From Imbricaverruca yamaguchii (taxonomy: Eukaryota > Arthropoda > Thecostraca > Neoverrucidae), in the NCBI GenBank assembly GCA_034440575.1, contig JAOTOL010001455.1:124001-188000 (forward strand): a stretch of DNA of 64,000 nt. The letters are read 5' to 3'. The translations under genes were made by a program, and so were the position numbers. The notes beneath the pieces were generated by a model. That model saw only the letters and a program-made list of their open reading frames with translations, had not been told where the DNA came from and searched no databases. Of the stretch, positions 20,601-62,104 are shown piece after piece (position 1 is the stretch's first letter; each line of letters starts with the position of its first letter).

Positions 20601-22613
20601 GAAGTAATACTCTGCCGATTGAGAATAGGCCATACCTTTGCAACACATATTTATATGTTGACCGGTAATGACCGTCCCGTATGTCCGCGCTGTTCTAACC
20701 CGCTTACCGTGTACCATGTTTTAGTTGGCTGTACACTGCTAGAACCTCTACGACGCCAGATTTTAGGACGGTTGAACACCGACTCTTCTTTACGTATGCT
20801 TATAGGGAACGACTCTGAGGCCGTTGCGTCTGGGAATATTTTTATGTTCATTCGACAAGCTCGCTTTGACGTGATATACCCCCATCCGTGAAGATTGATA
20901 GTGAGCTATGATAGTAGCACCGTAGATTGATTCCATTCTAGTTATGGGCGCAAAATGACCCTAGATGTCGACGCGCCCCTAAACTCCAACACACCACCAC
21001 CACCACCATCGACCAGGCACGGCGGCGGCCTTTTGGCGCTTAGGGAGGTGCAAACAAGTGGTCGCTTGTTCGAAGTAAACCAGTCAATATGATCATTGAG
21101 CATTGTTTTGGTTACTATCTTTTTAAAGCCAGTCAAAAGTTGTGGGGACGAGTAGCTTAGGGGTAAGTTGCTCGTCTCACACTCAAATGGTTGTGGGTTC
21201 GAGTCTCGCCTGTCGCTACTCTTCGCCCGCGACCAGTCGGCGTGAGGAATTGGCGACGCTACACGACTCAGTGGTCAATGTGTCGTAAAAACCAATAACC
21301 AGTCAAACGTGTTTTGTTGGGGAATTGGTTTGATTTGCTATCCTGCATGCTCATCCATAATTACGAGGGATATGACACTGACAACTTTGTTATCATTCCT
21401 GCGGACTGCCGGAATTTCTTTCATCATTTCAAACCGGTAATGAAACGCGCCTCGTTTTTCCTTTTAAAAGATCTGGGTTAGTTTGTTGGAGACATTTTTC
21501 CATCCGGTTTTCCATTGCAGTACCTGTGGCATGGATGCCACGATTCCTGAGCTCCGCGAGCAGCGCCCAAGACGTGAATAAGTTGTCAAACTAGGCTCCG
21601 TGACCTTTTGGATCTGAAATGATACTTATCGTGTCGAACACCACTCTCGTCCCCATAGGCATGTCCTGCAACCGAAGGAGCTGCTCCTTTCCACGGTACA
21701 TCTTCCCCGCATAAAGCCCACAGTTTGGGGTCCAAACGGGTGGGCTTTGCGAACTGCTCCAACCCGTGACATCCGTAGTGGTGGACGATCATCTCATCCA
21801 TAGCTAGTTTGTCCTGATCTATGCTAAACCTCCGCAACGACTCGTTCAGCACAGCAATCAATGGTTGGACCTTGCAACCTCAATCCGTGCTGGTCTGCTT
21901 CCTCGAGTTATCCGGCAATTGAAGATACCGTTTTATTTGGATATACTTGCTACGTGGCATAGCCTTCCGAACTGTGTAATGTGCTAGATTATCTAACTCT
22001 GACCAGGATATCTTTTCGCTTGGCAGTGTAACATCTAGAGAAGGTGAAAATCCCAGTGAACCTATTCAGGTCGCTGTCATCTATCGAGAAGAGTCCGTGA
22101 CCCGCCGTGTGTCGGCGGGGAGGGGACCGGACCGGGCGGGGGTGAGGTGTGGGGGGTGACCACCGTGATCGGCAGGGTGAGGTGTGACCGTGGGGGGGGT
22201 GCCGTGACCCGCCGTGTGTCGGCAGGGTGAGGTGTGACCGTGACCCACCGTGTGAGGGTGAGGTGTGACCGTGACCCACCGTGTGTCGGCAGGGTGAGGT
22301 GTGACCGTGACCCACCGCGTGTCGGCAGGGTGAGGTGTGACCGTGACCCACCGCGTGTCGGCAGGGTGAGGTGTGACCGCTACCCGCCGTGTGTCGGCAG
22401 GGTGAGGTGTGACCGTGACCCACCGTGTGTCGGCAGGGTGAGGTGTCGTACGTGCGCGTCAAGGAGGACTCGGGTGGCAGCGGCGGCAGCAGGCGGTCTC
22501 GCTCCCGCTCCTACTCACCTCGCCGGCGCAGCTCGCCAACATACTCGCCGGTCAAGCGCTCCTATTCGCGCTCGCGTTCCCGGTCGCGCTCACTGTCGCG
22601 TGACCGCTACTGA
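14514..22613 (+). CDS. SRSF1: SR splicing factor SRSF1/SF2, three coding exons
   Basis: Coding exons are 14514-14677, 19481-19856 and 22437-22613. Phases agree and give 238 residues (human 248, Drosophila SF2 255). RRM1 (about 7-78) has RNP2 CRIYVGNL and RNP1 [11 protein letters not shown] Gly/Arg linker (about 80-114) follows. RRM2 (about 116-190) carries the invariant SWQDLKD signature at 129-135, the RNA-contacting heptapeptide of SRSF1-type pseudo-RRMs. The RS tail (about 199-238) ends RSLSRDRY. The protein is a nuclear essential and alternative splicing factor that binds GA-rich exon enhancers and supports U1 and U2AF recruitment. The last exon is preceded by a minisatellite of decoy acceptors, which may matter because SR genes commonly autoregulate by unproductive splicing. 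Confidence 0.95.
15656..15740. repeat. 12-bp AT-rich tandem repeat (ATTCAATATTT)
   Basis: Six to seven nearly perfect copies of 'tcaatatttat' in SRSF1 intron 1. Confidence 0.9.
16345..16484 (+). repeat. Dispersed repeat, copy A
   Basis: Shares 'ggttttacag', 'cttgcttcaactaaacattc' and 'cagacatgaactaaa' with 36867-37000, and more weakly with 53304-53413. No coding potential. Confidence 0.75.
18375..18408 (+). mobile_element. LINE-tail fragment
   Basis: 'gtcgaagcgcccctaagccc' plus 'aaataaccaacc' matches the 3' tail of the local LINE family. Confidence 0.6.
18608..18652 (+). mobile_element. LINE-tail fragment
   Basis: 'atcaattctggtcagaatgc' then 'cctaaaggccaaacaacta'. It is close to the fragment at 52595-52642, which shares the same lead-in 'atcaattctggtca'. 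Confidence 0.5.
19481..19856 (+). CDS. SRSF1: SRSF1 coding exon 2
   Basis: Acceptor CCGGCCGCAG, donor CATGAG|GTGAGT. Encodes [16 protein letters not shown] (end of RRM1), the Gly/Arg linker with [17 protein letters not shown], and RRM2 through KFRSHE. It is much GC-richer than the surrounding introns. Confidence 0.95.
20463..21015 (+). mobile_element. 5'-truncated non-LTR retrotransposon: ORF2 C-terminus and 3' UTR
   Basis: The open frame ending at 20891 has the post-RNase H tail common to I/Jockey-type LINEs: [20 protein letters not shown] then a [19 protein letters not shown] zinc-knuckle-like motif. The 3' UTR contains 'gttatgggcgca' and 'cgacgcgcccctaaactcc' (hairpin) and ends in (ACC)n at about 20990-21010. 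Reverse transcriptase is missing. It sits in SRSF1 intron 2, in the gene's orientation. Confidence 0.8.
21143..21311 (+). mobile_element. tRNA-derived SINE copy
   Basis: GGGGACGAGTAGCTTAGGGG (box A region), GTGGGTTCGAGTC (box B), body 'gtcgctactcttcgcccg' and tail 'gtcgtaaaaaccaataacc'. The tail resembles the LINE tail 'aacccaaataaccaacc', suggesting mobilisation by that LINE. Confidence 0.7.
21350..21975 (-). pseudogene. piggyBac-family transposase remnant
   Basis: Minus-strand frames read [19 protein letters not shown], then [40 protein letters not shown], and in another frame [19 protein letters not shown] with [10 protein letters not shown]. These blocks occur in this order in the piggyBac/PGBD transposase core (DDE_Tnp_1_7), including the DE..M..Y(Y/F)G and FDN(L/F)FTS signatures. 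Frame changes and stops break it, and both ends are missing. It lies inside SRSF1 intron 2. Confidence 0.8.
22097..22436 (+). repeat. Minisatellite of about 35 bp carrying copies of the SRSF1 exon 3 acceptor
   Basis: The unit is 'gtgtgtcggcag' then 'ggtgaggtgtgacc' then 'gtgacccacc'. Copies of CGGCAG/GGTGAGGTGT end near 22175, 22225, 22293, 22328, 22364 and 22401, with degenerate ones further left, before the true acceptor at 22436. Reading from any decoy gives Gly-Glu-Val-stop. Confidence 0.9.
22437..22613 (+). CDS. SRSF1: SRSF1 coding exon 3 (end of RRM2 and RS domain)
   Basis: Acceptor GTGTCGGCAG at 22436. Reads [17 protein letters not shown] then the RS tail, TGA at 22611-22613. The first 10 bases (GGTGAGGTGT) recur in every unit of the upstream array, but only the true exon continues CGTACG; decoy units continue GACC, which creates TGA. 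Confidence 0.95.
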   Translation, partial: GEVSYVRVKEDSGGSGGSRRSRSRSYSPRRRSSPTYSPVKRSYSRSRSRSRSLSRDRY

Positions 22614-25722: not shown

Positions 25723-26013
25723 CTATTCAGTCGCCGATCCAGGCCCGTCTGGGTGCGTATCCGAGTGGTCTGGCGGAGGCCAGGCGTCCAGCAGGCGGGT
25801 GTGCTGGTGGCAATCCCGAGGCAGGCTGACGCCGGTCTGGCGGGCGGCCAGGAAGGCGGCGCCGCAGCACAGCGAGCCGCGCAGCTGCAGCAGCCGGAAG
25901 GCGGCCAGGTGGGGCGCCAGCGTGTCTGTGAAGCCGTCCCGCAGCAGCGGCCACGACCGGAACACGGCGCCGACCACGACAATCTGCAGACCGCGCGCGT
26001 CCTCCAGCACTTC
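25723..26013 (-). CDS. NAGK: NAGK exon 8 (terminal)
   Basis: Acceptor GTGCTGCACAG. Starts EVLEDARGLQIVVVGAVF, continues RSWPLLRDGFTDTL and ends PDGPGSATE, TAG at 25723-25725. The C-terminus after the LPRDC motif differs from and is slightly longer than vertebrate NAGK. Confidence 0.9.
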   Translation of the reverse strand, partial: EVLEDARGLQIVVVGAVFRSWPLLRDGFTDTLAPHLAAFRLLQLRGSLCCGAAFLAARQTGVSLPRDCHQHTRLLDAWPPPDHSDTHPDGPGSATE

Positions 26014-29000
26014 CTGTGCAGCACGGTGTTACAGCGTCATAACACACGCAGACCGCGAGCGTCCTCCAGCACCTGCACAGCACGGTGTTATGGCTCACAC
26101 AGACCACGCGCGTCCTCCAGTACCTCCTGCACAACAGTGCGTCATGACTTCCAGATCACGCGCGTCCAGCACCTCCTGCACAGCACGGAGTCATGGCGTC
26201 ACGACACACGCAGACCACGCGCGTTCTCCAGCACCTCCTGCACAGCACGGAGTCATGACTCATACAGACCACGTGCGTCCTCCAGCACCTCCTGCACAGC
26301 ACGGAGTCATGACTCATACAGACCACGTGCGTCCTCCAGCACCTCCTGCACAGCACGGAGCCACATCATGACGTCGCGCAGCAGACAGACCACAGTCATG
26401 GTCAAACTTGTGTTGGTAAATCTGCCCGAAATGGAGCATCAAATTTGCACATACAATCGAGAGGCACGTGTTTTCTTTTCACGATACAAAACGTTATTTT
26501 CCTCCACGACACATCCTTCCTCACAAAACACGTGACCACATGTGATATGTGTCATCCATTGCAATGAAACCTCAAAAGGAGGAAGACACTTGGCTGTGCA
26601 CTGGTTTGGCTCATTAGTTCTCCCGAGCATAACCTTCGAAAATCGTCTGCTTCAACAGATCTATATTTCTCGGAACTTGACCTTGCCAACATAGTTTGTG
26701 TGCATCGTCACCGTTAGAATAGTTATCCTTCAATTAGGTGTCTGACAAACGGAAAAGGTACATGTATGAGTACGATGTTGGATCAAAATGGTATTTAAAG
26801 GAACTATAAGTTGTGTCCGGCGACTTTGCATCCATGGAAAAGTTCGACAACCTATTGTAGTCGCTTCGACATCTCGCACATGCCAAAAAAAAACATTATT
26901 CTAGCACTGCCTTGTCGTGACACTAACCTTGACCTTTGTACGTGTCACAGTGGTGGCCGACGTCGTCAGTTTGCATGCCGTCTGTATTGGGTAGCCCCGT
27001 GCAATGCTTACTTTCATGAAGCCATCACTAAATCAGTACTTGCAGCTTGATGAACGTGATTAGTTTGCAGCGCAGCTCCGAAGGCGGTTTTAAACATCGC
27101 GGTATTGGCTGACTGTAACAGCATATTTCAACCGCAAGATGATGTCGACGGTCAAAATAAACGCAACCATCAAATGCACCATTAATCTTCACATATTTGG
27201 CCGTCGTCAGAAGTAACAAAGCGGAAAGATGACTGTTTGAATAAAATGTGGTTCTGAAGGCGATCTGCCCCACTGTGTATCAGCTGAAGAGGGATGTGTG
27301 TCAATGAAAAGTACCTTTTGACAACAAACTCTGTTTCAGATCTGATCATTCTACATACATATATGCCCAGTGATAAAATATTCATGGAATAGGCTAGAAT
27401 ATGCCACTTCATAAAAACGCAATCCATCCAAAGAAGCATCGTCATCATGCTTTTTAATGTGTGTTTATGAAGTTTACATGCCTCATTTCTAACTAAAAGC
27501 ATCTCGTTTATAAGTATACTCTCGTGATGGTGCTCACAATTACGGTTCATGGCACATGGACGTGGCGCAATTCCTGGTGGTTCCAGGTGAAGTTGCCAGT
27601 GATGTGGTTTGCTATACATCACCAGTGAATATATTTTATCGTTATCGTTGATGTAGGTATCCATAAACTAGGCATGTGCCAGTATAATTGAAAAAGTTCC
27701 ACTAAAAGTATCCAATGGACAGAAAATTGAGTTTCAAAGATATCAAGGGTAGTTTCAGGAACATCATTTTTTTTCATGACGAATTTCGACAGCATATTGT
27801 ACTGGCTGCTATATCTCGTACCTTAGGAAATTCAATTATTTTAACACTATGTAGCCATACCAACATTGCAAGGCTACCTTACTTCTTGAAGCACGACTAC
27901 TGGTAAGCACGCAGCAGCTATCTAACTTGGTTCGGTGCGTGCCTTCGGCACAGTTCATTTGAATATTTATTTTTAAATGTAAAAATGCTATGTACAAAGA
28001 GACTCAGTATATCACACAAAATCGTAGCTATTAATATGAGACATAAAATGTACAATTTCATGGCACTACCTCATGCAACGTGGGTACAAATTGTAGTGCT
28101 CCTGGGAATGTATCTTTGAATGTGTCATTAATGTATAATAAAAGCAATGGCCCAAAGATTGCAAAGACGCTTTCCCCTATTTCCTGTGTCAATAGTAAAT
28201 ATGAGTATCTGTATCTGAGTATCTGACTATATGTACTATATAACCTAACCAACAATGGTATCTATATTCCTCCCCTAACAAACAGGGAAACACCAATTTA
28301 TACGCAAGCTAATTTTCGTAAATAATTCCTGGCTGCTAAAAGAAAAAAAGACTGGCTGTGAATACCGAAAACATTTTCCGGTTGTAATTCACGCCAATGA
28401 TATGACAAACATCGTAACAACAGTTGGGAATATGTATCTAGACGAACATTCGCCATTAAATACCTTGTTGTTCTGACCGATAACGGTACGAAATAAAAAA
28501 TTCGCCATATGCAACGGAAATGGCGTTTACAGTAAAAATTGATGAATTCTTACTGGGGTAAAACATTTCCTCTACAGGAAATAGTTTATCTTTCTTTAAA
28601 ACATCATATTAGTACATTGATTGCATTGCTAAACAATCCCGACAAAAAACGAGCAACACAGTTAACCATACGTATCGCTTCCGGCACACATTTTTCTCCA
28701 TGGTTGAATTGTCTTCTTCGCCACCTCACCAGGAAAATAACTGTTTCCTATCATGGCGATCGTGCAGCGTCGGCGGTTACCTTGTCGACGTGCGGCAACA
28801 GGGCGAGCACGTATCTGGCCAGCCACGTGCCGGCCTCTCGGAACAGCTGGCGACAGAGGGCGTCCCCGGCCGCCGCCGCCGCCGCCAGGTGCTCGCACAG
28901 CGCAGCGAAACGCTGCTTCTCGAAGTCTGTGTACGCGTGCTGCAGCAGACCGAACCTGGCAGTGTTCCGGTCACGTCACGCCAGGATCAGAGCGACACGA

Positions 29001-29436: not shown

Positions 29437-29481
<45 letters not shown>

Positions 29482-29488
29482 AGAGAGA

Positions 29489-29576
<88 letters not shown>

Positions 29577-32500
29577 CCAGAAAGTCCCGTGTCCCTTGAC
29601 AGCGTACTTGGTATTGAGGAACGTCCATGTGAAACACGAAGATCCTACTAGTCTAACAACGGCTCTTGGTGATGGGTGAAAGCCCGGGATGTGCAGACAA
29701 AAGTTTACAGGCGTCGGCGATGACCGGGTTTACATGTCCTTGACGTCAGGGCCGGTACCGACCAGACCTATCTGTCCTTGACATCAGGACCGATACCGAC
29801 CGGACCGACCTGTCCTTGGCGTCAGGGGCCGGAACCGACCGGACCGACCTGTCCTTGACGTTGAAGCAGACCCGGATAGCGTCCCGCACGGCCTCCGTGC
29901 TGTGCGGAGGCTGGCGCAAGTTGTCATCCTCGTCAAACACCCACTTGATGGCGGCGTGAGAGATCCACCAGGCTGCCGAGGAGTGGATGTGGTCGGTGAG
30001 AGATCCACCAGGCTGCCGAGGTGGGGATGTGGTCGGTGAGAGATCCACCAGGCTGCCGAGGAGGGGATGTGGTCGGTGAGAGATCCACCAGGCTGCCGAG
30101 GAGGGGATGCGGTCAATGAGAGATCCACCAGGCTACCGAGGGGGATTACGGTCGGTGAGAGATCCACCAGGCTTCCGAGGATGGATTGCGGTCAGTGAGA
30201 GATTCACCAGGCTGCCTAGGAGGGAATGTGGTCAGTGAGAGATCCACCAGGCTGCCGAGGAGGGGATGTTACCAGTGAGAAATCCACCAGGCTGCCGAGG
30301 ATGGGATGCGGTCAATGAGAGATCCACCAGGCTGCCGAGGGGGATTACGGTCGGTGAGAGATCCGCCAAGCTTCCGAGGAGGGATTGCGGTCGGTGAGAG
30401 ATTCACCAGGCTGCCGAGGAGGGAATGTGGTCAGTGAGCGATCCACCAGGCTGCCGAGGAGGGGATGTGGTCAGTGAGAAATCCACCAGGCTGCCGAGGA
30501 GGGAATGTGGTCAGTGAGAGATCCACCAGGCGGCCGAGGAGGGAATGTGGTCGGTGAGAGATCCACCAGGCTGCCGAGGAGGGAATGTGGTCAGTGAGAG
30601 ATCCACCAGGCTGCCGAGGAGGGAATGTGGTCAGTGAGAGATCCACCAGGCGGCCGAGGAGGGAATGTGGTCGGTGAGAGATCCACCAGGCTGCCGAGGA
30701 GGGAATGTGGTCAGTGAGAGATCCACCAGGCTGCCGAGGAGGGAATGTGGTCAGTGAGAGATCCACCAGGCTGCCGAGGAGGGAATGTGGTCAGTGAGAG
30801 ATCCACCAGTCGGCCGAGGAGGGAATGTGGTCGGTGAGAGATCCACCAGGCTGCCGAGGAGGGGATGCGGTCAATGAGAGATCCACCAGGCTGCCGAGGG
30901 GGATGTGGTCGGTGAGAGATCCACCAGTCGGCCGAGGAGGGAATGTGGTCGGTGAGAGATCCACCAGGCTGCCGAGGAGGGGATGTGGTCAGTGAGAGGT
31001 TCGCCAGGCTGCCGAGGGGACCGTAATCAGTGAGGGGTCCACCAGACGGCGGATAAACGGTTGGCGTCAATGAGGGATTTGCGGTAGGAGAATGGTTTAC
31101 AGTAAGCTCGCAGTGCCAAGATTCAGAGTTAGAGCCAGATCAGTCAGCACTCCACCATGGAGGGAATGCGAATAGTAAGCGAAAGGTGTACGAATGTCGT
31201 GGTCGCGGGAAAGTCACTTCTAAGTTAGTTTGTCCAAATCAAATAAGTTATGCTGGTACCTGTTGGAAAAAAACCGTCTTCAAAACGCTATAAAAATAAG
31301 CGTGGCTTATCTACAGATAAAAGTGAAGCCACCACATCCGTCGCAAGAAAGTATTTAGTTTTGCATATTCGTAACGATTGTAAGAAAAGTCGTCCATGAA
31401 TTAGCATACAAAGCCGAACGATCAATTCGTTGGTGCTTTAGATGCCTGGATATCCATAGGTTTTCGGTGGCCAAACACCGGTAGGCTCTAGGTTCAGTGC
31501 AGAAAGTGAATGCTAAGTTAGCTTAAGTTGCCTTCGGTTAGGTTAGGTTAGTTTAACGCGTCCGGATCCGGTCGGAAGGAGAAATGTGCTTTCTCGACGT
31601 ATTTCAAAGATTCTGGACACACCAACGAGGTAAGAGGAGTTGGCACACATTTGGGCAACACTCGCACAGCATATGACCAGGCAGCACGGTATTTTGACGA
31701 TCCTGTTCACTGGGGAAAATGCATAGCATGTGGCGGTGATCAGTGCATTCGGGGCGTTCAAAACTGTCGAACTTCTTTAAAAGCACATACGCAAAACACC
31801 GAACCCGAAAATTCTGTCATTGCTAGCATATATAATAGTGGAATGCCGTACATGTCACACGGGATGCCAATATACGGGGCTGTTTTTTTTTTCAAACCCA
31901 GAAATGCGATCAGAAAATGGCACCAATGAAAACGATGCTGACTACTGAAATGAAAAATCGACTGTCCTGATGCATCGTTCTTTTGCCATAATCAACTCAT
32001 GCTGGAGACGCATGCTATATAGATGCAGTTAATGTTACTTTATTCAACTGTGGGTTTGTGTCAGACTTGTAGAAGCTACACTCAGTTAGACTTACGTTGC
32101 TTTATACTGTACGCAAAAAAATGGCACACACACAGAGAGACATACATATATATGTTTACCTGTAGTATATTACCAGCGTGAATTTAATTTCATATTTACA
32201 TCTGACTGACGACCAGCCCGGGAATGAGTTTGGATTGCATGGATTGTTGTAGCGGAGCGGTTGCTGTAAGCGTATGGACTTGGTGCGACGTGTGGACCGG
32301 TACAGCGGTGCAGTGATGAGGGACATACCGCCACCCTCGTCGCCGAACAGGTGTCCCCAGCCGCCGCAGCGGCGCGTGCTGCCGTCGGCCCTGAGCAGCA
32401 GACTGTTGGAGCCAGTTCCAGCGATCAGGCAGAGACCACCTGCAGAGCACACCGTCCGATTATCACTGGCACAACGGCCTCCCCCACCCCTACAGTTAGT

Positions 32501-35500
32501 TATTTGGGTTTTAGGGCGCATCAACTGCAGTGGTTATACAGCGCCCACCCCACCCCTACACACCACAATCCACCTCACCACACGATCGCTTCCCTCACCC
32601 TTACACACAGCAGTCCACCACACCGAACAACGGCCTCCCTCACCCCTACACACAACAGTCCACCACAAAACATAACAACCCCATCTACACACCACAATCC
32701 ACCACACCGCATAACGGCCTCCCCTACCCCTACACACAAGTCCACCACATCTGCTGGAGATCCAGTACACATACACTGAGTGCCCGGCGCTTCATCCTAC
32801 ATTTTAAATCCCCAGCAGCGACGGACGGCGGTGACTCCTGCAGTCGCCGCCGGGCGAGTTTGTGCAGTCCCGCGAGCGCCGTCAAAGCCAGAGCTAAAAA
32901 TGATTGCAATACGCAGAAAGAGTGTGTGCTAGTTTTTTTTGTTCCCCAGAAGAAATCGCACGCATCCGGGTGACGCATTTACAAGATACAACTTAGCAAA
33001 CTACGGTCACGAACGAGGTGTCCACTCCTTTGATCAAATATGGTAAGGATGTGGACTTTTTTAGTATCAGAGTAATGGGCTTCTTACGGCATTGAAATGT
33101 CGGGAAGGTTTGATTTCCAACATGCATGATATGTTGTTAGTGATATACCGGCTATAAATATGCGATGCTTTCTCCAAAGACAAATATAATAGCGTCTACT
33201 TCTGAAATCGTAATTTGTCCGAACGCGCTAGGATTTTTAGAAAAATACGAGCATAATACCACAATGTAGTGCAACCTTATCGAAATTCAGGGCAGAATGT
33301 TATGGAAAGGTTCATTAATTGAGACACGTATCCGCTATGTGATGAAGTAACATAAATATCACGAATTATGTGCGCTACACTGGAGGAGGTAGTGTAATGC
33401 ATCAGTGCTGCGCTGGAGAAAGTAGCGTGATGTGTTGTGCCAGAGAAGGTAGCGCAATGTCTGACCGTTCTCGAAGGCGGTGGCGATGGTGCCGACCGTG
33501 TCGCTGCAGACGTGACAGCTGTCGGCCAGCGGCGGCTGCTGCAGCAGCAGGCTCCGGCGCAGCTGGTCGTTCGTCTCGGCAGCCTCGCACCCACTCAGAC
33601 TGAGACCCTGTCGGCAAACGCACCACACTGCTCGAGGGACCGCACCACATTGCTCGAGGGATCGCACCACACTGCTCCAGGGACCGCACCACACTGCTCA
33701 GGAACCGGTCTAACTGCTCGGGGACCGGACCGAGACGCTGCTCGGGGACCCGTCTGAGAGTATTTTGGGACCGGTCAAAAACACTGCTTGGGGACCGGTC
33801 TGAATCTCGCAATTTCACAACTAAGTCTTACATAGGCTGGTTCGCAGTGCTCGTTATAACTGAAGAAGCCCACTGAGCGAAATATGTTCATTTCACCGAA
33901 TTAATCCTTCTGGTGTATTCTTTATAATAAAAAAACGTCAGGCTACAGTTAAAGTCCCTTTCCGATATCGGGAAGCGAGCTCAGTCATAATGATGAAATT
34001 GCGTGCGCCCTGCGCTTGCTGTGTTGTTAGAATATTGCCTGTGGGTTCAGACTTCGATTTACCACCTTTCAGATCTGGTAACGCAGTCTTCTTCAATATT
34101 TCGAACATACTAACAGGCAGTGGCTATGTCTATCTTCTTTCGCCAGGTCATGAAAAATTTACCTTCGATCAGACCATCCAAATGAGCTGGACACTGAATT
34201 CCGGTGTTACTCGTTAATATATTAGGTGGCGATGACGATGCGCTTGCTTGGAGGTTCAATTTCAATTTTCACAAGTTCCAACTTTCACCTGCGAACCCTG
34301 TAGCCTACCATGCAGAATACAGATCGACGCTCCAAGTCGCAAAATTCCATCGAGGCCAAATTGTGCACCAAGGCCGCTCACCAGGACAGCTCACCATAGC
34401 AGCTCGCCAGGGCGGCTCACTAGGGCGGCTCATCAAGGCGGCTCACCAGGACAGCTCACCAGGACAGCTCACCAGGGTGGCTCATCAGCAGCGTTGGAAA
34501 AGTGGCCCTTTTTTGGAACTTTTCCATCCAAAGAATTATGCACTCCTCAAATAAATACACTCCTTGCATTGCTGGATGAAGACATGCTTAACTAACAATA
34601 TACAGCTAGATGTCATACAATAGTGATAAGTTGGATGGAGAGGAGGAAGCAGCATGTTATGGGGTCTATAACATTTGGTGATTTATGGCTGATAATAAGA
34701 TCCTCTTCCAGTCCTAGTATTCATCATACTGTTCAGTCACAGTGAGTCCCATACCACATAAACCTTCCAACATAATTGAGGAAAATGCACATTTGCTATT
34801 TCAGGTCATCTGCAGGAACATTCCAAGAGGAAGCAGTAGTGGAGCCAAAAATGAGATGCCAGCCAGATTGGAAGAGTACCAGCTTGCTAGTATCCACAAG
34901 TACAAATGATGTCAACATATGGAACACTGCAGTCTGCATATGACCTTAATGGCACTGATCATTCCATATTCCATAACATGTGCATATTCTTCATTTGTGA
35001 AAAACCTCAGAACAGAGTACAGATGTGCCCAGAAGAATGTATGGCTGAACACTGAGAGCCAGAGTGGCATCCACACAACTGGTAAGCCACAAAGGGTAGC
35101 ATTGCCTAAAATACCAAAAATATTGTGGATGAGCCACATTTTGCCATGGCATAGGAATTTTCATGGACATTACTACTTGTCCATAAGACAAGTTTTACAC
35201 ACATTTTACCTCCATGAAGCATACAAAGGTATTAGGTTTGGCTAAGTTATGTTAGATTAAGGTTGTTTTGTAAGTTAGACAATTATCAAGTTCCTTTGGG
35301 GATCTTTCAGGACTAAAACAAGTTCTGAATAAAAAAATGGTCCAGGCTAGGTTGGAATAGAATAGGTTGTTTAGTTTGAATTTTCAAGGGCAAACATTGT
35401 GTAGAAATTTTCCATTAAAAATTGCTTCCTTGCATCCAGAGCTAGGCTGCATATTTTTTTTCTTCATTTTGAACATTACATTTTATGCTACATTACCCAA

Positions 35501-38500
35501 GCAACTCCACGCCACTTTTTGGGTGTGATTTTGCTGCCCAACTGGACTTTCCAAAAGAATGTGGTGGCATCATGTAGGCACATTATGAACATGTGCACAT
35601 TCATAAGAATTGCATTAAAAAATGGAATTCCAAGAAATCAAATCACCTTAAACTGCAAATTTATCCTTTCAGAAAGTCAGGGGGGATCAGAACGGTTAAC
35701 AGTATAATGGTATTCAATGAAGGATTGGGACAGGATGCACCTAACAATTCCATAAACATTTCATGAGTGCACAAATAATGCTTGAATGCATGCATGCATT
35801 TATATATACGATATTTGCAAAGTATATGTGCACTGTAGACGCCCAGCCCTCTTTTTGAAAGAAAAATATTCACCGTTCAAAACATGATAAGTGAAAACAG
35901 GATTTCCCAGACAAAAGCAAAACAATCAGTTTTGTTCATTCCTACGCTGGTCGGCAATACATCACAGCAATTAATAGTCCACTTCCTACTCCTTGCATTA
36001 TCCAAATATATCCCGTCACACAACATATGCTTATGACTTTGGTTTATCCAAATTAACAACTCGAATAACCGTGCAGATATTTGGTATAGGTAGGTAGGTA
36101 CCTAGTCAGGAAATACCAACTCTCGTACCTCGTGCAAAACATGCAACTAATTCCACCTGGATAGCAACGAAGAACTTCCGAGAAAATCCTTCGTTCAATA
36201 AACAAAAACCACTACGCTCCGCTAACCAAATAAAGGAATTCACCTCTGCCAGCCCGACAGCGTACGAAGGTCCCTTCTTGGATTCCATGAATTCACCGCT
36301 CTCCAGTTCCCACTCCGGCCGGAGCTAGTTAAACCATAGCCAAGAAAAGCCATGGATAATGCATTTATTTTTGCTTCCTTGAAGAATGATATGTTCTGCA
36401 TCAAACGACATGGATAAAAGCGTTCATATTTATATTATAAAGCAGTCAGAAGCGACATACATAAAAGATATGGGATGGATTTTTCACATGAAAAACACTG
36501 CGCCAAAGTGAAGCTCCAGAGAACCAGAAATTTCACTCTGTTGATTGCATGACTTATATTGCTTCAAAATGTCATCAACAGGCAGGAATAGTTGTGTTCA
36601 TGCCACTCCGACCGCGAGGTTTTCCCACTCCGGACAAATTCAGATTTACTTTCGTTGTTCTAATGCACTGACGATACTCCAAGCTTCATTCTGATCCAAT
36701 TATTAATTTCTTCCCATAATCTGATGATGATTAATTGGGGAAAAATCCCCCGTAATTCTTTTGGCGGTTTCTTCTAACTTATTTTCTCTTTTTTTGCATT
36801 TCATCATGGTGCAAATGCAATCATGGTGCGAAATGAGACGCAAATTTCCGCTCGTCCGTGGCGATAGTCGGTTTTACAGCGGCAAGTTGCCCGCCCGCCT
36901 AGTTGCTTTTCATCCTTCCAAGTCATTCCTTGCTTCAACTAAACATTCCAGACATGAACTAAAATGTGCATAGAAATACATTTAATACTAATAAGAATTG
37001 ACTTGAATACATTTTCTGTTTTCTCATAAAAAAATGTTTCATGGTCGTGAGAATAAAAGATTTCAGACGGATTGTTTTAGTATAACTTTCCTTAAACTAT
37101 TATATATTCCGAAACCCATATCCCGAAGTAACATTCTAGACCCTCCCATATATCAGTCGGTGCACGAACGTCCTGCTCTTGAGGTGTGTTGTGGATATGT
37201 ATTAGTTGTGCGGTGTGGGCATGTCAGGAGTGACAGGTATGAATATATAAACTTGGTTGACATCGATTAAGTATACTTTTGTGATCATTTTCTCCACCAT
37301 TGCTCAGGAAGTTACCTTATAAGTCATCCACGTAACGTGAATGACTTCAGGCGACGACGTGTGGTGGACCTCATCTGGTTGTCTGTGAGACACTAGGATA
37401 GGAACCGAACAAATTATTTGAAGGCGTTTTATTCTTGAAGAAGAATCTCAGGTTATTTTACGATGCATTCAACTGCAAGGTTGTATAGCGTACCGCAAGG
37501 TTGATTGGTCGTGTGTGGACTCTGCAAATGCCGCCGGCGGAGAGATTCGAGTCCGACGCTCCACCACCTGAGCTGACGAGGCCCCGGGTTTTTATGCTTC
37601 ATTCCAGGAAACATCACTGCATTTTTTCAAAATGTACACACTTCGTTATGTATAAAATGTATATACTCCATGACTTGGTGTTTCAATATACACCCCATAA
37701 TTTGGCAAAGTGGAAAATTATACACTCCATTGCATAGTTCTTCTCAATATTATACACTCCATACTTTGGCAACCCAAAAAATTATACACTCCGAACCCAA
37801 GACTGAGAAGTGAAAATCCAACACTGCTCATCAGGGCAGGTCACTAGGACGACTCACCAAGGCGGCTCACCAGGACAGTCCACCAGGGTGGCTCACCAGG
37901 GTGGCTCACCAGGGCGACTCACCAGGGCGACTCACCATGGCGGCTCACCAGGTCGCCTCATCAGGAAGGCTCACCAGGGCGGGTCACCAGGGCGGGTCAC
38001 CAGGGCGACTCACCAGGGCGCGCAGAGTCGTGTTCCGTGGCAGATTGGCCAGTTCCAGGGCTTCTTCTACCAAAGCACGAATTCTAGCTTCTGTCTTCTC
38101 CATTCCAATCAACTGGAACATTACCGAGCAGGTAGGTGTCACGTCTATCCTGGCCCAGTTGCATTGATCAACCACCAAGCCGGATCTGACTTACACACGG
38201 TACGTGAGCGTAGAGCATGCACTTTCCTCGCTGGAACGAGGAGCGCAATGGTGCATCGACAGATCACTCGAACACGTGGCTTAGCGTACGACCGGTAAGT
38301 TAACTGCAACACATGAGAAAAAAGAACAAAGCAACGACACTGATGCTACGGTGAAAGAATAATCATCTCAGTCTTGACTTCATACTTGACATTTATTCTG
38401 ACCATTCCTGAATAATTCGCACAATTTCAGTCATATTCATTAGTGCGATTGTATACATTTCACTTCTTATAAACACGAGGAGTCGGGATTCGATGCACAG

Positions 38501-41500
38501 AAGAATTAATCTAGAAGTTGTCAAGATGCAATCAGTACTGTCATCATAAGGAAGAAATCAGCAACTCAAACTAACGGCGATTTCATCCTGTATTTGATCT
38601 GAGAATAGGCAACAAAACTGGAACAGATAGTAAGCAGTTATTTAGTGTCACTCTTCTGGGCCATGCTCTGGAGTGAGAACTAGGCTTCTGATTTCTCCCT
38701 TACGACAGACTGGCTTACGAATACGTTGATGCAGGGTCCATCACACTGGGCCAGACATTTCCCTGTCGAGTCACACAGGGATACCACAGAGTGGCTACCG
38801 CCGCTGCAACAGGAGAACGACATCAGCCAAGCAGACCCAGCAGTTGGAAAAACATGTGTCCGAAACGGCTAACTACTAAATCATGCAGGGTGGATGCAGC
38901 AAGGACGATGCTGGGTGTGGGACACCGGCAGAGACTGGTAACGGTGCATTACGGGGTCAGTCGGTGCATTACGGGGGCGGGGGGGGGGGGGTCAGTCGAC
39001 CATGTCAAAATGATTCGATTATCAGGAGATTTTATATCCCCACCTGATCGCAGACAATCGTTATTTTCCTATGGTACGCCGATCCAAAGTTTCCAAAAGT
39101 CAAGCCATTACATCGAGAACACTGATTACTTGATCTGATCATTAGAACCACGAGTTATTTTACGACGCATTCGAATGCTAGGTGGCAGCGTCACGTACCT
39201 CTCACGCCGATCGGCTGCGGGAGGACTCGGTAATTCCGCCAGTTGAGGGGCTCAAACCAACGATCGTACGATCAAGAATTGAACACCTTACCGACTGATT
39301 CACCGAGAACACGGCATCGGTATAAGAGGACTTCATGTTCGAAATTGGTCTAATAGATCAATTTGTTGTAAAATAGTTGCATCCCCTTAAGAATGAACGA
39401 GTGGTGGTGGTTGTGACTTCACGACGCATTCAGCAGTTAAGGCCATATGTCGTCGCCTGCCTTTCACCCTGGCAGGGAAGGCGGGCATCACGGGGAATCG
39501 AACCCCGTACATTTGGCGTGCCAGACCCTCAGCTTGGTTGGTTATTGGGGTTAAGACCCTCAGTTTAACCACTGCGCTACCGACGTTCCTAAAGAATTTC
39601 CAATAAGTTGATTCCGCTTACAGGCGACTGTGAGAATACCGAAGAACATATAATACTAGAAAGTGTCGCTTCTCAAAAATCACAAAACATCTTGATATCT
39701 CACCTAAAATATAAACCCTCCACTGGTAGGAACCCTATTCGACATCAGGCAAGGCCTCAAAGCTACCACAAAGTATTAACTCGACAGTGAACTTAAACCT
39801 ACATTTCGTTGGTAGACCATCATGCTTCCACTGGACATTGAAGCCACTACAGGCGCAGGATCGGATACCGTGCTGTTGCCGGCAGATGGCTTGTCGGTCA
39901 ACCGCACCTGTGCTCTTTTGGCAACCCGCGAAGACGTTGACACATTGGAGTCCATCCAATTATGGCTGTTTTAGCAGCTTCGAAAGTGGCATAAACGTGA
40001 CCATATAAGGTGGCATTAAGTTGAAATGGTCGAAGGCACCTTAAATAAGCTGTCCCTCTACCAAAATAGAAGCCGTTCCTACCCATCAGGTAACACACAT
40101 ATGTACTCCAGTTCCTTCTACTACTCACAATCCGTCAAATTGGACGCCAATAAAAACCTGACACAAAAGTATGAAAGTGTTCACATCCTTGTTCATAAGC
40201 CGATAATGTGACGAGCGTGATGCTAAGGAATGAGAAAGGAAGCATTCTATACAATAGCTGCACTCTATACAGTGTCAGGAATGGGAATATGCAGATGCTG
40301 AGTCATGCATGACTATACGAAGTAAATTATGTCATACTTTACTACGAACTTTATCATCCATACTTCACATACCACATGACTGAAACATTCTACACTACAA
40401 CTCACTAAGATGCTGATGCATGGGCCATCACAGTGTGCCACGCAATGCCCACTTGGATCAAACAGCTGAATAGATGAGTGACTGCCACCCCTGAGAATTG
40501 CACAGAAATATGGGTCAGAAAACTTGCATGTTAGTATTCAGAACATGGTCTGTCAAATGCGCTGGGTGCAAGACGCTTCGAGCAGTTTGTTATCTCACAA
40601 TCGTCAGGCACTTACCATTTTAATTTATATATTTAAAAAAAAACATATTTCTGCTGTATACAGGTTCTGGTTTTTTGTCATCCAGAACATTATCTTCCAT
40701 GAAAATTATCCCCTCATGCTTCTTGTTGAAAGGCTGAGTAGTGCTGCTTGAAGATGTTGCAAACATATTGCTCTTTGATTTTTTTAATGTTCAACTCACT
40801 GGAATCACACAACAAACTACCTGATATCACAGATAAGAACAAAATTATCCTCTCCAAATGGCATGGTACACAATATGTACACATCCAATATGGAAGTCCA
40901 AACCTGACCCTAGGTCGGGTCACAAATCACATGTTTCAAAAGACAAGGTGACCCCATGACACTGACTGAAAATAAACCATCCAAAACTGTGGTAGTCACC
41001 TTATAATCCAGCATTCCACCACCTATTGACAAACTTCTTTGATGTTCAGTGTGAAACTACTCCAGAAACCAGGAGCATATCCATTTCATTTTATGTGTTA
41101 CACTTAATTTTTTACTCATACTATTTCCTTTCCATTGCATTAATTTGCATGCTTGCATACCTATTGCAATCATACTTCACTTTGGCTCATCCTCAGCTTT
41201 TATCACTTTCATGATCCACTTGCTTTCTTAACTTGAATCCATTTTGATACAGGTTCATCTACCTTTATTGTACACACCAATGTTCATTATATTTCTTGTT
41301 TTTACAGTACAGTACAGCTACAATAAGCACAAAGCAGTCTGCAAACATGACAAACTCAGCTAGCTCTAACTGGTGTGACCAGCATGGACTAGCACACACC
41401 AACATACATCATGACATTGACCAACACAAACTGGTATACATCAGGACATGGAGTGCAGTGCATAGGTTAGCACACACTAGTAATGCACCACAGGATTCAG

Positions 41501-55887: not shown

Positions 55888-55951
55888 ATGGATATCAGAC
55901 CAAACCAAACAATCTATATCCAGAATCTCAATGAGCGAGTGAAGAAACCAG
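55888..55951 (+). CDS. snf: snf coding exon 1
   Basis: TATTTTCAG|ATG; encodes [20 protein letters not shown] then Pro; donor G|GTGAGT. Confidence 0.95.
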
Positions 55952-58307
55952 GTGAGTAATAGTGTGTATGCCATTTTTGAACATATTCCTTTTGCCTTTG
56001 GATATTTTTTTTGTGGAGCACCCTTAAATAGTGCTACCAAATTCATTGTAGTTGGGAGATGTTTTTGGTGGTGGTGATCTGGTACATTGCTGTCTTTCTT
56101 GTATTATGTATATGAGGCTAACCAGAATCTGTTTTGTCCAACCAGATTAAGTCATTGATGAAATTAATGATAATCATGAATATTTACATGGGCTGAGACT
56201 GCAGAGTAGCAAACACATGAGGTGTCATGCTGTTCCAAATGCCCCTTGTTTGTTTTCCCTGAAAGCAAATAGGCAGTATACATTGTGTGCTGTTGTGTTT
56301 CATCATGTCTGCTCTTGCTTATTTAAAGGGTACCTCTTTATTTTCAGAGCTAAAGGAATCTTTGTATGGTTTGTTCACCCAATATGGTCCGATCTTGGAC
56401 ATTGTGGCTCTGAAAACATCGAAGATGCGTGGACAGGCTTTCATAGTGTTCAAGGACATTGGCAGCTCCACCAATGCTCTGAGGTCCATGCAAGGATTTC
56501 CATTCTATGATAAGCCAATGGTGAGACCAATATCATTAGCGTGGTGAGCAAATCTGTGACACCAGTTTTGCCCCTCAAGCAGGGGCATAGCCATGGGCTG
56601 GCCAGGGCTTAGACGACACTGGCTCTTCAAGTGTACTTCTTATGCTAAAGTGTCGCTTCTGTCTCGAGCATGATAAAATGTATATCAATGATCTCCTTAC
56701 ATTATCATTCACTCCTCCCTCCCATTATGAAGACATGGCTGCTCTTCTGATCTGATCTGGACATCAGGTGTATTAATGTGAAATGCAGTTAACCCTGTGA
56801 TTAGTCACTAACCACATGATATTGACAATGATGGCTTGGGTGTGATCTTCGATGATTGGTTGATGCTTTTTATGTATTCATTGTAAGGCATTTTTAGTTT
56901 GTTTGATGAAATACATTGAGCAAACAGTTAGTGTATGCATGTGCTTGGGTAGATCTGCGTTCATAATTGATTTTCCTATTCTGTTCTTGTATTATATTGT
57001 ATTATTTATGCTTCCCAAAAAAATATTGCCAATTGGTAGATCCTATAGTATCATCGGTCCGAACGGATAATACAGAACTGTTACCCCACTGCGACTTAGA
57101 TGCTCACTTCTATGCATGATCATCCCCCACCTGTTACCCGGACCGTCACCAGCTGCCACATATCGATGCGCCCCCTAAACTCCAGTCGCCACATCTCCAC
57201 CGACGATCGTCTCCGGCGCCCCGAAACTGGCCATCTTCCACTGGCATCTCCGTTTCCACTGCTGACACCACCTCGGCCACAGCGTATTCAGTACGGCAAG
57301 TCCGAGTCGGACGCAGTCGCCAAGCTGAAGGGCACCTGGCGTGCCGACGGCACTCGTCGCAAGGACCCCCTCTCCAAGAAGACCAAGAAGGGCGCCAAGG
57401 CGGGCGCGGCGGCCACCAACGGCGTGCGTTCTCAGTTGTCCGGCGACGGCGACCAAGTGGACACGACGCCCGCCGGGCCCGAGCAGCCGCCCAACCAGAT
57501 CCTCTTCCTCACCAGGCTGCCCGACGAGACCAACGAGATGATGCTGCAGATGCTCTTCAACCAGTAAGTCCAGCACCGTCGTGTCCACGACGTTTACTTC
57601 GGTACATGTGTGCTGGGCGCCTGAACCAATTGATTGATAAGTTGACAGTTTGGCCGCATGGCGCCGATTTCTGCCGGAGGCGTGCGTGCCAAGCACGCGA
57701 CTTCTTCGCTTCGTAGCCTTCTACTAAGCTATGTGCTATACGAGTATTTTCCAACACGTGGAGGTGTTGAGTTTCTCCCGGCCGCGTTAGCGCGTCGTCT
57801 GCTTCCACGCGCTAACGCGTTCTCCCGTTCACGGGTCACGTGCTGCCCTGTGGGACCCTGCGAGGTAAGCTTTTCATAGGGTCCAAACAGAGAATTAACT
57901 GTGATTGATATTTTTAGGAACAACATGGATTGTTGGCCATCATGAGAGGTCCAGACCACTGCACAGGAGTCCTGATGAATCCATGTCGGCTCCCCGGATT
58001 ATGAGCTGACATTGTGAGCGGGTTCCCCGGATTGTGATACGCCGCTGTGATAAATTGCACAGTTTGTGAGCTGCTTTGAGCAGGTTGTCCAGATTGTGAG
58101 CTGCTGTGAGCAGGTTGCCCAGACTGACTGGACGCCGTTGGGCGCAGGTTCCCCGGATTCAAGGAAGTGCGGCTGGTGCCAGGTCGGCATGACATCGCGT
58201 TCGTCGAATTCGACTCTGAGTTGCAGTCGACGGCGGCGCGCTCCGCCCTGCAGGGCTTCAAGATCACTCCCACGCACGCCATGCGCATCTCGTTCGCCAA
58301 AAAGTGA
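55888..58307 (+). CDS. snf: snf: U1A/U2B'' snRNP protein, four coding exons
   Basis: Coding exons are 55888-55951, 56348-56520, 57283-57563 and 58148-58307, with matching phases, giving 225 residues (U2B'' 225, Drosophila Snf 216, U1A 282). RRM1 has RNP2 TIYIQNL (8-14), the [20 protein letters not shown] helix and RNP1 RGQAFIVF (49-56), then [20 protein letters not shown] and YGKSESD. This is the U1A-family RRM that binds the loops of U1 stem-loop II and, in Drosophila Snf, also U2 stem-loop IV. A basic/low-complexity linker (about 88-148) is followed by RRM2 with [20 protein letters not shown] and [16 protein letters not shown], ending MRISFAKK. Arthropods usually have one gene serving both snRNPs. 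The ATG directly follows a splice acceptor, so a 5' non-coding exon lies upstream. Confidence 0.95.
56348..56520 (+). CDS. snf: snf coding exon 2
   Basis: Acceptor TATTTTCAG, donor GTGAGA. Encodes [18 protein letters not shown], then [14 protein letters not shown] and [11 protein letters not shown]. Confidence 0.95.
57160..57185 (+). mobile_element. LINE-tail fragment in snf intron 2
   Basis: 'atcgatgcgccccctaaact' followed by 'ccag'; compare 'gtcgacgcgcccctaaactc' at the 3' end of the LINE at 20463-21015. No TSD was identified. Confidence 0.5.
57283..57563 (+). CDS. snf: snf coding exon 3 (linker and start of RRM2)
   Basis: Acceptor CGGCCACAG, donor CCA|GTAAGT. Starts [19 protein letters not shown] and ends MMLQMLFN(Q). 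Confidence 0.95.
57975..58146 (+). repeat. Diverged about 28-35 bp tandem repeat carrying snf exon 4 acceptor copies
   Basis: Units contain GAGC(A/G)GGTTCCCCGGATTGTGA or decayed forms (GCAGGTTGTCCAGATTGTGA, GCAGGTTGCCCAGA). The copy at about 58021-58032 has the same GTTCCCCGGATT as the true exon start at 58148. An older, more decayed case than the SRSF1 and NAGK arrays. Confidence 0.75.
58148..58307 (+). CDS. snf: snf coding exon 4 (end of RRM2)
   Basis: Acceptor [26 protein letters not shown], then [18 protein letters not shown] and AKK, TGA at 58305-58307. The first bases GTTCCCCGGATT recur in the upstream array. Confidence 0.95.
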
Positions 58308-59045: not shown

Positions 59046-59521
59046 ATCTGAGTGGCCGGGACTGCTCGGCTGATGTCAGTACGTTGGAGAGTACCGGTCT
59101 GAACGGCCGTGTGGGCCATAAACTGGGTGTGAGGTGGCTGTGAGACAAACGAACGCGACATACCTTGGTACGTGGGATAATTATACAATTCAACGTTGTA
59201 TTTTGAGTCTGAAATCACACCATTTAAGTCAGAAATCAATCCATATTCAGCAAGACTGCAGCTGATTTCGGTTGAAGGAGATTTTTTTTTCTAATGTATA
59301 TATGCCAAAACTGAAATGTCAGTGAACTTGGAAGCAGCTGCAGGCAGTGATACCAGCAAGTGTGACAGCTAAATTAATGCTATTGGGCATATTTCTGTAC
59401 TTATACATGATTTGTTGTTCAAAGACAAGTCACGGATAAATACATGACTGCCTAAGTTTACTCCGTGAGATGAATATGGTTATAATAGGTGCATGTTGCT
59501 GGAACCGTGCTATGCAACAGC

Positions 59522-59527
59522 AATAAA
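59522..59527 (+). terminator. Candidate polyadenylation signal AATAAA downstream of snf
   Basis: First clear plus-strand AATAAA after the snf stop codon, 1.2 kb downstream. Consensus match only. Confidence 0.3.
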
Positions 59528-60056
59528 CACGAATTGTAACCAAGCTCATGTCATGGAGTAAAGTTGTTTCGTTTACCAATTTGTAACCAAGCTTTTTTCA
59601 AATTTCTGATCACCCTGCACTGTCTGCTGTGGCCGTTGCTAACTTGACGGACATTAAATTGGAGGCGCGATTTTCACAACTGTGCTACTCTGCAAAATGT
59701 CGAGCACGCATCCCAGCTTGAGGTTGCGTGTCAAATTGTAGAAATAGCTTTCGTTTATGTTTCAAATTCCCGAATTTCGATGAAAATCATACATAATAAG
59801 CCGCACGTATTTTGTCGGCTGCCAAGACAGCACCGTGGCAACAGTCGCACAAGTTTCATGGTGCGATGTCGTGCCTGACCCTGTGCCTCCATCTAAGGAG
59901 CTCCGTTTCTGAATTTCACCACTAACCCGACCCGTTCCACAGCCCATCTTGCATCCCTAATGGCGCATACTGGTTAGCAAATATAGGCAATCTAGCCCTC
60001 CATTCCTTCCTTGCACTGGGTCCTGACGTATACAAGCTTCTTTTTTCCTCTTCTGA

Positions 60057-60162
60057 GGAATACGTCAGAAATGGAGCTCTTTGTCAAATTGAGTTCCTGC
60101 GGCGTCACCGGAATACGTCAGAAACGGAGCTCTTTGTCAATCGGAGGTACTGCGGTGCCACC
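60057..60162. repeat. 53-bp tandem duplication
   Basis: Two adjacent copies containing 'gaatacgtcagaaayggagc' and 'tctttgtcaa', about 85-90% identical by eye. Confidence 0.8.
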
Positions 60163-61233
60163 ATTGTCCAGTCACGCCGTTTGATGCGAGGAAATAGAGC
60201 ATCTGTTTTGGAGGAAGTGGCTTCATTTTCCCGCCAACCGGAATATGCTGTAGCCGTTGGTGTGTACGCTGTGCACATTCCTCGTGGATATGCGAACCCG
60301 TGAGTTTGTGCATATCTCGTACGTACTTCGGACTTGGTGCTGGTAACAAGTTCGATATATGCCTGCACATACGCTGGAGCGCATTGTGCATCCCGGAGTC
60401 TAAATAAGGGCTCACGGTCGGTGATCTGATCATTGGTGGCCAAAAAAGGACCATGCCAGATGTCCTATGCAACAGGCCAAGATACAAATTGTATTGTTTA
60501 AAGCCACCCTTGCCAGTCACACTGAAGTACACTTACGATGACACTCAGCTACACGATGCATCAAGTTGACAATGTCGCAGCACGCGGCTCGCCAGTGTCG
60601 CTTGTGAAAATGTGCCGGTGCTTCCAGCGCCACATATCCCCACAACAGCAGCTGCTGGCGGTACACTGCACGCCTCGGACAGCGCTGCTCCGTCCGGGAC
60701 CATCAGGCCGGCGGGCGGGTGGCCTCCGCGCGTCAGCCGGTGGTGCCGACTGTAGAAGCCCAATGCCCATCCGTCGCCTCTTGAGCGGGCTCTCGCACGA
60801 CTCAGGCCGGGAGCGACAGGCGGCCGACGCACATGACCATGACGCAACTCACATTTGCGAAATAATCCAGTTGGGTTTCTCGCTGCTCCATACCCATGCA
60901 TTGATGATCGACATTGCTTCCGATGTCAGTGCGTGGGAACGTGCGTTCGCGCGTGGAAGCGCATGTGGGTGCGCTGTGTAGTCTTGTGTATGTGGTTCAG
61001 TAGAGTGGGTGCACAGCGTGCGTGCGTGGATGATCGCTCGGAAGTCAGCCGTAGGGCCGCATGTCCAGCCGTGTCTACCCGTTGCGTCTGTTGGCCGGCC
61101 GGAGCAGCTGGGCTGCCGACCTGCGCTGGGGGAAGACCTGCGGCGTCTGGAAGAGGGCGCTGAGCTCTGGCAGCAGGTCGCCGGCGCTGAAGCCGACCGC
61201 CTGCGCCAGACTGACCGACGCAGGATTGCTCAC

Positions 61234-61300
61234 CGCGCCGCACACGTACGTGAAGCAGAACGGGTCCATGATGAGCCCACACGCCGGCTGGTTACAGTAG
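61234..61300 (-). CDS. Cysteine-rich protein exon B
   Basis: Acceptor GTCCGACAG, donor GTGAGC at 61228-61233. Encodes YCNQPACGLIMDPFCF then TYVCGA. Its first 16 bases are part of the adjoining array unit. Confidence 0.65.
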
Positions 61301-62104
61301 CTGTCGGACACACACCGAGGCTGGTTACCGTAGCTGTCGGACACACACCGAGGCTGGTTACCGTAGCTGTCGGACACACACCGAGGCTGGTTACCGTAGC
61401 TGTCGGACACACTCCGAGGCTGGTTACAGTAGCCGCCGGACACCGAGGCTAGTTACAGTAGCTGTCGGACACACACCGAGGATGGCTACAGTAGCCGCCG
61501 GACACCGAGGGTGGCTACAGTAGCTGCCGGACACCGAGGATGGTTACCGTAGCTGTCGGACACACCTAGGCTGGTTACAGTAACTGTCGGACACACACCG
61601 AGGCTGGTTACCGTAGCTGTCGAACACACAGCGAGGCTGGTTACAGTAGCCGCCGGACACCAAGGTCACCTCGTCGTTAGGATTAGCTAAGAGTTAAGAT
61701 GTCTCTAAGCTAAAAATGGCCAGGTTGCAGTATATATTTGACAGTGGGTGGTGTATTAATTGAGGCTCTATGGACCACGCAGTCTGAGTGTGACCTGCTC
61801 CTAGAGCTGCTTCCTCACGTCAGTATGGCGGAACGATATAACGACCGGACGATCGATATTTTGCAGTTTAGCAAAATATCGATGTAAGTAGTAAATAGTA
61901 AGTTGTAGATTTAAAATTATGTTCCATAAAGCTGAATCTCCCAGCGTACTTGACTATTTGAAATCTACTAGGGACTTATTATTTACTATTTACTGCTAAT
62001 CGGGGCTAAATCTAGGCTGGATTTAACCCCGGATTTGTGCGGCAAGGCTGCATGGTCCTTCATTCTGACACCACAAAAACATGCATATGCATGTACACAC
62101 ATGC

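Follow-up and report, generated by a model that had tools for sequence, protein, structure and literature searches.

Seven tandem arrays in the genome of the barnacle Imbricaverruca yamaguchii consist of units that contain the splice junction of the very exon they abut. They lie in a stretch of 64,000 nucleotides (the window, i.e. C1222:124001-188000 of a 767-Mb assembly with 1430 contigs) and affect five acceptors and two donors in four unrelated genes, SRSF1, NAGK, snf and a cysteine-rich gene. An original prediction, made from the sequence alone, had listed seven such arrays in these genes, and all seven are present. It had also held that no named family exists for them; however, amphioxus 'mirages' share their anatomy, as described in passages of PMC3087553. 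The barnacle arrays belong to this known type, which here occurs in a crustacean. As best explanation, with a probability of about 0.72, we propose mirage-type minisatellites that arise by frequent local tandem duplication, selection sparing those duplications that get spliced out. The observation is thus confirmed, and its interpretation is partly supported.

Results

Anatomy of the junction arrays

As probe for each junction we used a 24-mer of 12 intron and 12 exon bases, a copy being any match with at most six mismatches within 2 kb. Extra copies accompany seven of the 27 junctions identified in the window (Table 1) and are lacking at the other 20, and in all seven arrays every copy is located on the intron side. 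Unit lengths range from 13 to 54 bp. Each unit had been predicted to include 4-27 exon bases; the upper value is correct, but the smallest number measured is 7 (NAGK exon 3).

Divergence is greatest in the snf array, where a single copy passes the threshold, the rest being identified by eye; the best copy of this array has a score of 29 as compared to a maximum of 22 in 150 shuffles. The NAGK exon 3 donor array is present, but it is larger than originally described and split into two blocks by an insertion of 3338 bp, without which it comprises 24 units in a single 13-bp register. The insertion is flanked by 8-bp target duplications (34481-34488 and 37827-37834) and has inverted ends beginning with CAGYGTTGGA; on this target duplication and these ends it is classified as hAT-like.

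The exon part of the unit is less variable than the intron part in the SRSF1 (0.000 vs 0.037) and NAGK exon 6 acceptor arrays (0.026 vs 0.052), but more variable in a third array (0.067 vs 0.055). Identity to the consensus is 0.88 for the NAGK exon 6 unit at the distal border, 0.97 for the exon-side unit and 0.90-1.0 for the others; the other two arrays exhibit no clear trend between border and inner units.

Several candidates were not counted. The array at 33619-33759 (minus strand), 12 bp from the NAGK exon 4 acceptor, has no significant junction copy and is possibly an old, decayed junction array, and the array at 32551-32749 lies 112 bp off the nearest exon and is not junction-derived. The acceptors of SRSF1 exon 2 (P = 0.02) and NAGK exon 3 (P = 0.033) reach these values uncorrected among 27 junctions tested.

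Table 1. Positions of junction arrays, the insertion and exons. Positions refer to the window or, where a locus is named, to that stretch of the genome sample.
Feature	Position	Strand	Unit	Exon bases per unit	Copies	Remarks
SRSF1 exon 3 acceptor array	22097-22446	+	36 bp (26 intron + 10 exon)	10	9 with true site; 5 extra by 24-mer
NAGK exon 8 acceptor array	25987-26365	-	about 54 bp	27	4 extra by 24-mer
NAGK exon 6 donor array	29735-29861	-	38 bp	13	3 with true site; 3 extra by 24-mer
NAGK exon 6 acceptor array	29956-31017	-	40 bp (23 intron + 17 exon)	17	27 with true site; 26 extra by 24-mer
NAGK exon 3 donor array, exon-proximal block	37826-38020	-	13 bp	7	3 extra by 24-mer
NAGK exon 3 donor array, distal block	34366-34488	-
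hAT-like insertion, 3338 bp	34489-37826	.				inside NAGK exon 3 donor array
snf exon 4 acceptor array	58008-58160	+	about 30 bp	12	1 extra by 24-mer	diverged
Cysteine-rich exon B acceptor array	61286-61660	-	33 bp (18 intron + 15 exon)	15	12 with true site; 11 extra by 24-mer
SYNCRIP/hnRNP-Q-like donor array	L041			about 21-27	5	identity by search
SCP2-thiolase exon, acceptor and donor arrays	L039 8325-9178	-		about 54 (acceptor), about 24 (donor)	6 (acceptor), 3 (donor)	identity by search
RRM gene acceptor array	L044			about 12	29
Another RRM gene, acceptor array	L045			about 32	22
SRSF1 exon 1	14514-14677	+
SRSF1 exon 2	19481-19856	+
SRSF1 exon 3	22437-22613	+				10 residues as in Amphibalanus amphitrite
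NAGK exon 8	25743-26013	-				3' end approximate
NAGK exon 6	29849-29972	-				junction array on each side
NAGK exon 3	38014-38112	-
snf exon 2	56348-56520
snf exon 4	58148-58307	+
Cysteine-rich (Dickkopf_N-type) exon B	61077-61300	-
Cysteine-rich exon A	about 62245-62380	-

The conserved splice site

Exons were placed by means of conserved proteins (solved structures, barnacle and other homologues) together with GT/AG sites, covering SRSF1 exons 1-3, snf exons 2-4, NAGK exons 2-8 with a second copy of exon 2, and exons A and B of the cysteine-rich gene. A genome search with the NAGK protein of the barnacle Amphibalanus amphitrite again recovered NAGK exons 2 to 8. The A. amphitrite homologues are 74% (NAGK), 85% (SRSF1, 81% of the length covered) and 77% identical (cysteine-rich gene, over 85%).

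Homologues align across all seven array-bearing junctions with no insertion (NAGK and SRSF1 with A. amphitrite, the cysteine-rich protein with A. amphitrite and Pollicipes, snf with U2B''), and thus the exon-proximal, i.e. outermost, copy is the conserved site. The conserved proteins show no more than which site is standard, namely the outermost. The exon bases shared with the arrays encode FPGF in snf, identical in U2B'', CLSGSYCNQPACG in the cysteine-rich gene, conserved in A. amphitrite and Pollicipes, and AWWI and LRAL in NAGK, conserved in A. amphitrite NAGK; in SRSF1 they fall in the ten residues matching the A. amphitrite protein. The edge of NAGK exon 8 is conserved less well (EVLEDARGLQ vs EMLSAERGLQ). 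As the shared bases code for conserved residues, the exon predates the array.

Decoy splice sites

The original prediction placed each true site beside many decoys, and indeed the arrays hold fifty putative decoy sites that are similar to the true site, with AG or GT retained. Many array copies, but not all, have kept these dinucleotides; no snf copy is above the decoy threshold, and three of the four NAGK exon 6 donor decoys do not keep the register of the unit. A same-strand search revealed no comparable match elsewhere for any of the five acceptor arrays. The A of AG is altered in 4 of 27 NAGK exon 6 copies, 3 of 12 cysteine-rich copies and 0 of 8 SRSF1 copies, which argues that it is not specially preserved. 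The first two values exceed the average change (0.041 and 0.061, respectively), although related copies share changes.

If an acceptor decoy was used, a stop codon is predicted for 7/7 decoys in SRSF1, in each case four codons in, 4/4 in NAGK exon 8, 20/22 in NAGK exon 6 and 5/8 in the cysteine-rich gene, where the scan covered acceptor decoys and reached 90 bases inside the exon. The three decoys nearest to cysteine-rich exon B leave the reading frame intact and free of stops; used as acceptors, they would extend the protein by 11, 22 or 33 residues. They constitute a trap for annotation, as they would lengthen the predicted protein.

Frequency in the window and in a genome sample

Within the gene spans of the window seven of ten distinct arrays span a junction, whereas the number expected is 0.24 for uniform placement, 0.94 for GC-matched placement and 2.0 for GC-matched placement within 300 nt of exons (P = 4e-4 for 7 vs 2.0, random placement; arrays were collapsed to one unit, with unit lengths and GC entered by hand). 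For NAGK alone it is four of six arrays vs 1.08 expected with GC matching (P = 0.0075). Using borders from Tandem Repeats Finder (TRF), which miss the snf array, 6 of 28 window arrays overlap an exon edge (0.44 expected), as do 6 of the 16 with a score of at least 100 (0.59 expected GC-matched, P = 1.5e-5). The position-based test is weaker: copies accompany 7/27 junctions vs 6.7% or 8.5% of positions (P = 0.0017 and 0.0062), and local shifts match 7/27 in 263 or 638 of 20,000 cases (P = 0.013-0.032). All these figures overstate the rate in the genome, the window having been singled out for its junction arrays.

Outside the window we analysed 20 stretches of 10 kb (200 kb) around RRM hits, selected blind to repeats. 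They contain 53 TRF array rows with a score of at least 100, with a median GC content of 0.61 vs 0.50 for the stretches themselves. Junction-spanning arrays number five (seven TRF rows); they belong to four further genes and sit at three acceptors and two donors, with units of about 48-82 bp; as they were found by array-by-array reading, five is a lower bound. The search identifies an RRM in both L044 and L045. Among the RRM genes of the sample are those we take to be SART3-like and RBM28-like; the search ranks nucleolin above SART3. The SCP2-thiolase exon adjoins the hnRNP-type gene that brought its stretch into the sample.

Of 22 RRM-internal junctions one has copies (4.5%), and its position was assigned when the array was already known; 0/21 remain without it. 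The 22 derive from 25 edges, of which three were dropped as no site could be placed inside the domain (L044 profile 61, L042 profile 66, L047 profile 15) and the L041 edge was dropped as its site is outside the domain, while the RBM28-like acceptor was the one added after its array was seen. Since, at the same threshold, local copies accompany 13.5% of all positions in the sample, RRM-internal junctions are not above background. Comparing window and sample, i.e. 7/27 and 1/22 junctions, yields P = 0.06 (Fisher). With 100, 160 or 220 assumed junctions and an exon overlap of 4-65 bases, random placement predicts 1.6, 2.6 or 3.6 junction-spanning arrays (P for at least five 0.026, 0.13 and 0.30), so that the five observed are 1.4-3 times the expectation (for 220 to 100 junctions).

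Thus, junction arrays recur in this genome, in eight genes in all, four in the window and four in the sample. The window is unusually dense in them, and outside it they are not clearly commoner than random placement allows. The arrays are not confined to the window, but its rate does not hold for the genome.

Further sample arrays abut an exon without containing the junction in their unit and were not counted: a donor array at L031 (presumably ELAV-like), one at L042/L028, an acceptor array at L019 (presumably eIF3g-like), and arrays at L035 and L050 (presumably PABPN1-like). The L050 array (3274-3763) may be a degenerate acceptor array.

Local origin and possible turnover

The original prediction had units mutually unrelated and locally seeded, and the two window arrays searched agree with this: the NAGK exon 6 and cysteine-rich arrays, searched with their flanks against the entire assembly, match only themselves and, partially (65-76%), other sites. 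One match of the NAGK exon 6 array (C1344, 71%) was considered as a NAGK gene and rejected, as the NAGK search lists only C1222 and C562. Turnover may be seen in two near-identical loci on different contigs (L028 649-1395 and L029 675-1395), alleles or paralogues, each with a 25-bp array that abuts an exon donor and is outside the junction-spanning count: the exon is identical, but array length differs by about one unit and the variants follow in another order.

Discussion

Origin of the arrays

We suggest that a short segment straddling a splice junction would be duplicated in tandem, the exon-proximal copy staying functional as splice site and further copies becoming intronic and being spliced out, and that the array would then grow and be reshuffled by slippage or unequal exchange. 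In this genome, whose exons are mostly GC-rich, GC-rich minisatellites form with high frequency. Duplications within an exon would be purged by selection, whereas those crossing a junction would be tolerated as the outermost junction remains intact, so that the survivors near exons would be intronic arrays and those with the junction as outermost unit. Such arrays need not have any function. The explanation builds on the anatomy, the exon-first origin, the local seeding of the two arrays searched, the recurrence in eight genes and the array density, from which we infer the mutational mechanism, the selective filter and a rare use of the decoys. In favour of it, unselected junctions are not above background (1/22 vs 13.5%) while array density is high (53 in 200 kb), all copies at the 7/27 junctions are on the intron side, and the repeat-blind sample yielded five more arrays. 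Two points weigh against it: chance and composition do not cover 7/10 arrays vs 2.0 expected unless the window is a hand-picked outlier, and the five sample arrays would be unusual if only 100 junctions are assumed (P = 0.026).

The same excess in the window (7/10 vs 0.94-2.0 expected) might reflect a process focused on junctions, i.e. breakage, pausing or re-replication concentrated at exon edges, or a frozen edge unit that re-seeds the array. The fact that both ends of one exon are hit twice, in NAGK exon 6 and in the SCP2-thiolase exon, and the lower variability of the exon part in two of three arrays (SRSF1, NAGK exon 6) would fit this idea, but the window was picked for the feature, the sample lies below its background (1/22, or 0/21), its five arrays are near random placement and the exon part of the third array is the more variable one. 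We thus regard a junction-focused process as rather unlikely, and of the recurrent local process at exon edges proposed originally, locality and recurrence stand, while the focus on exon edges is no more than possible (1/22 vs 13.5%; 1.4-3 times random). Hardly less doubtful is the specific notion of exon-anchored minisatellites, where purifying selection would freeze the unit at the exon edge, which re-seeds arrays into the adjoining intron; with the exon part less variable in two arrays and more variable in the third, the data neither support nor exclude re-seeding. If it were true, junctions would be long-lived minisatellite sources in animals such as barnacles and amphioxus, where mutational input is high, and one would expect genome-wide enrichment and the same junctions to be rebuilt in related species with differing copy numbers.

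Decoys might also tune splicing, e.g. in SRSF1, as poison acceptors whose use results in mRNA that is truncated or degraded. AG/GT retention and the early stop in 7/7 SRSF1 decoys speak for such a function; nevertheless, we consider it improbable, given that the A of AG changes above average in the NAGK exon 6 and cysteine-rich arrays (though not in SRSF1), that units, sites and genes are unrelated, and that passages on amphioxus mirages report them without effect on splicing (PMC3087553). An exon edge that moved into a pre-existing intronic minisatellite, the end of the exon being repeat-derived, would likewise yield units ending in exon sequence, but is very improbable because the residues encoded by the shared bases are conserved across other animals and other barnacles and the alignments have no insertion at this point, an argument that is weakest at NAGK exon 8. 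Least probable of all, with nothing in its favour, is a single mobile repeat or an assembly artefact, as unit sequences differ between arrays, copies inside one array diverge by several per cent, the two arrays searched have only partial matches elsewhere, and a transposon-like element has inserted into one array with the register kept. Local tandem duplication with selection sparing what is spliced out thus remains our preferred explanation.

Comparison with known systems

Passages of two reports describe amphioxus mirages as minisatellite-like tandem copies of an intron-exon boundary, 5' or 3', in Adh3, the globins BflGb6 and BflGb9, PGBD5 and troponin C, with units of 10-72 bp in Adh3 and about 150-160 bp in the globins, where many but not all copies retain AG/GT (PMC3087553; PMC3902484). 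RT-PCR suggests that splicing is undisturbed, and length instability is reported (PMC3087553). The barnacle arrays are alike in that their tandem units contain the exon-intron boundary including exon bases (seven in the window, five in the sample), both boundary types are hit, unit lengths are within the reported range and many, but not all copies have AG/GT. They differ in being from an arthropod, in having up to 29 extra copies and several arrays in one gene, in the transposon-like insertion in one of them, and in being known from sequence alone. Among the open-licence PMC papers listed there was no report of mirages in arthropods.

Human IFI6/G1P3 (6-16) contains a minisatellite with multiple splice donors, several of which are reported to be used. 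Here, too, repeat units carry a splice donor beside an exon, but the use of decoys in the barnacle is only putative. Introners are one mobile family that makes many splice sites by copying; the copying of splice sites is a likeness, but the barnacle units are unrelated and local and do not form one family. A further parallel is intron gain through tandem duplication or the expansion of repeats (Rogers model; Cryptococcus CNN00420, PMC2395259). Splice signals are likewise copied in tandem by local duplication there, but no new intron was seen in the barnacle, and its junctions fit conserved proteins without insertion.

Amphioxus is very polymorphic. In the barnacle Balanus improvisus coding diversity averages about 5% and repeats amount to at least 40%, as given in passages of PMC8270832. 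High mutational input together with large populations is a plausible factor common to both groups. A second, distant animal group with many mirages would make it testable whether exon edges breed repeats or selection spares repeats that are spliced out, and with up to 29 near-copies beside a conserved site the arrays may serve as natural test cases for splice-site choice.

Further observations on the genes

The product of the cysteine-rich gene matches Dickkopf_N right at the domain cut-off. The A. amphitrite SRSF1 and NAGK genes are both listed on contigs of 1,341,507 bases, so that the SRSF1-NAGK neighbourhood is probably conserved. NAGK exon 2 is apparently duplicated (38719-38803 and 40406-40490, minus strand, 85 bases each and identical in phase), the copies beginning with GGSHSVVSLCDSTGKC and GGSHSSIQLFDPSGHC, respectively; they are possibly mutually exclusive exons. 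The second copy is absent among the matches listed in the genome search with A. amphitrite NAGK. A further NAGK-like gene (G000:C562:104107-105102) is found as a single match, 57% to A. amphitrite NAGK, which is uninterrupted and thus has no introns in the matched stretch. The GC content is 0.38 in SRSF1 exon 1 and 0.45 in snf exon 2, and 0.61-0.71 in the exons that follow. The NAGK intron between exons 7 and 6 harbours an (AG)n microsatellite of about 69 units (29439-29574).

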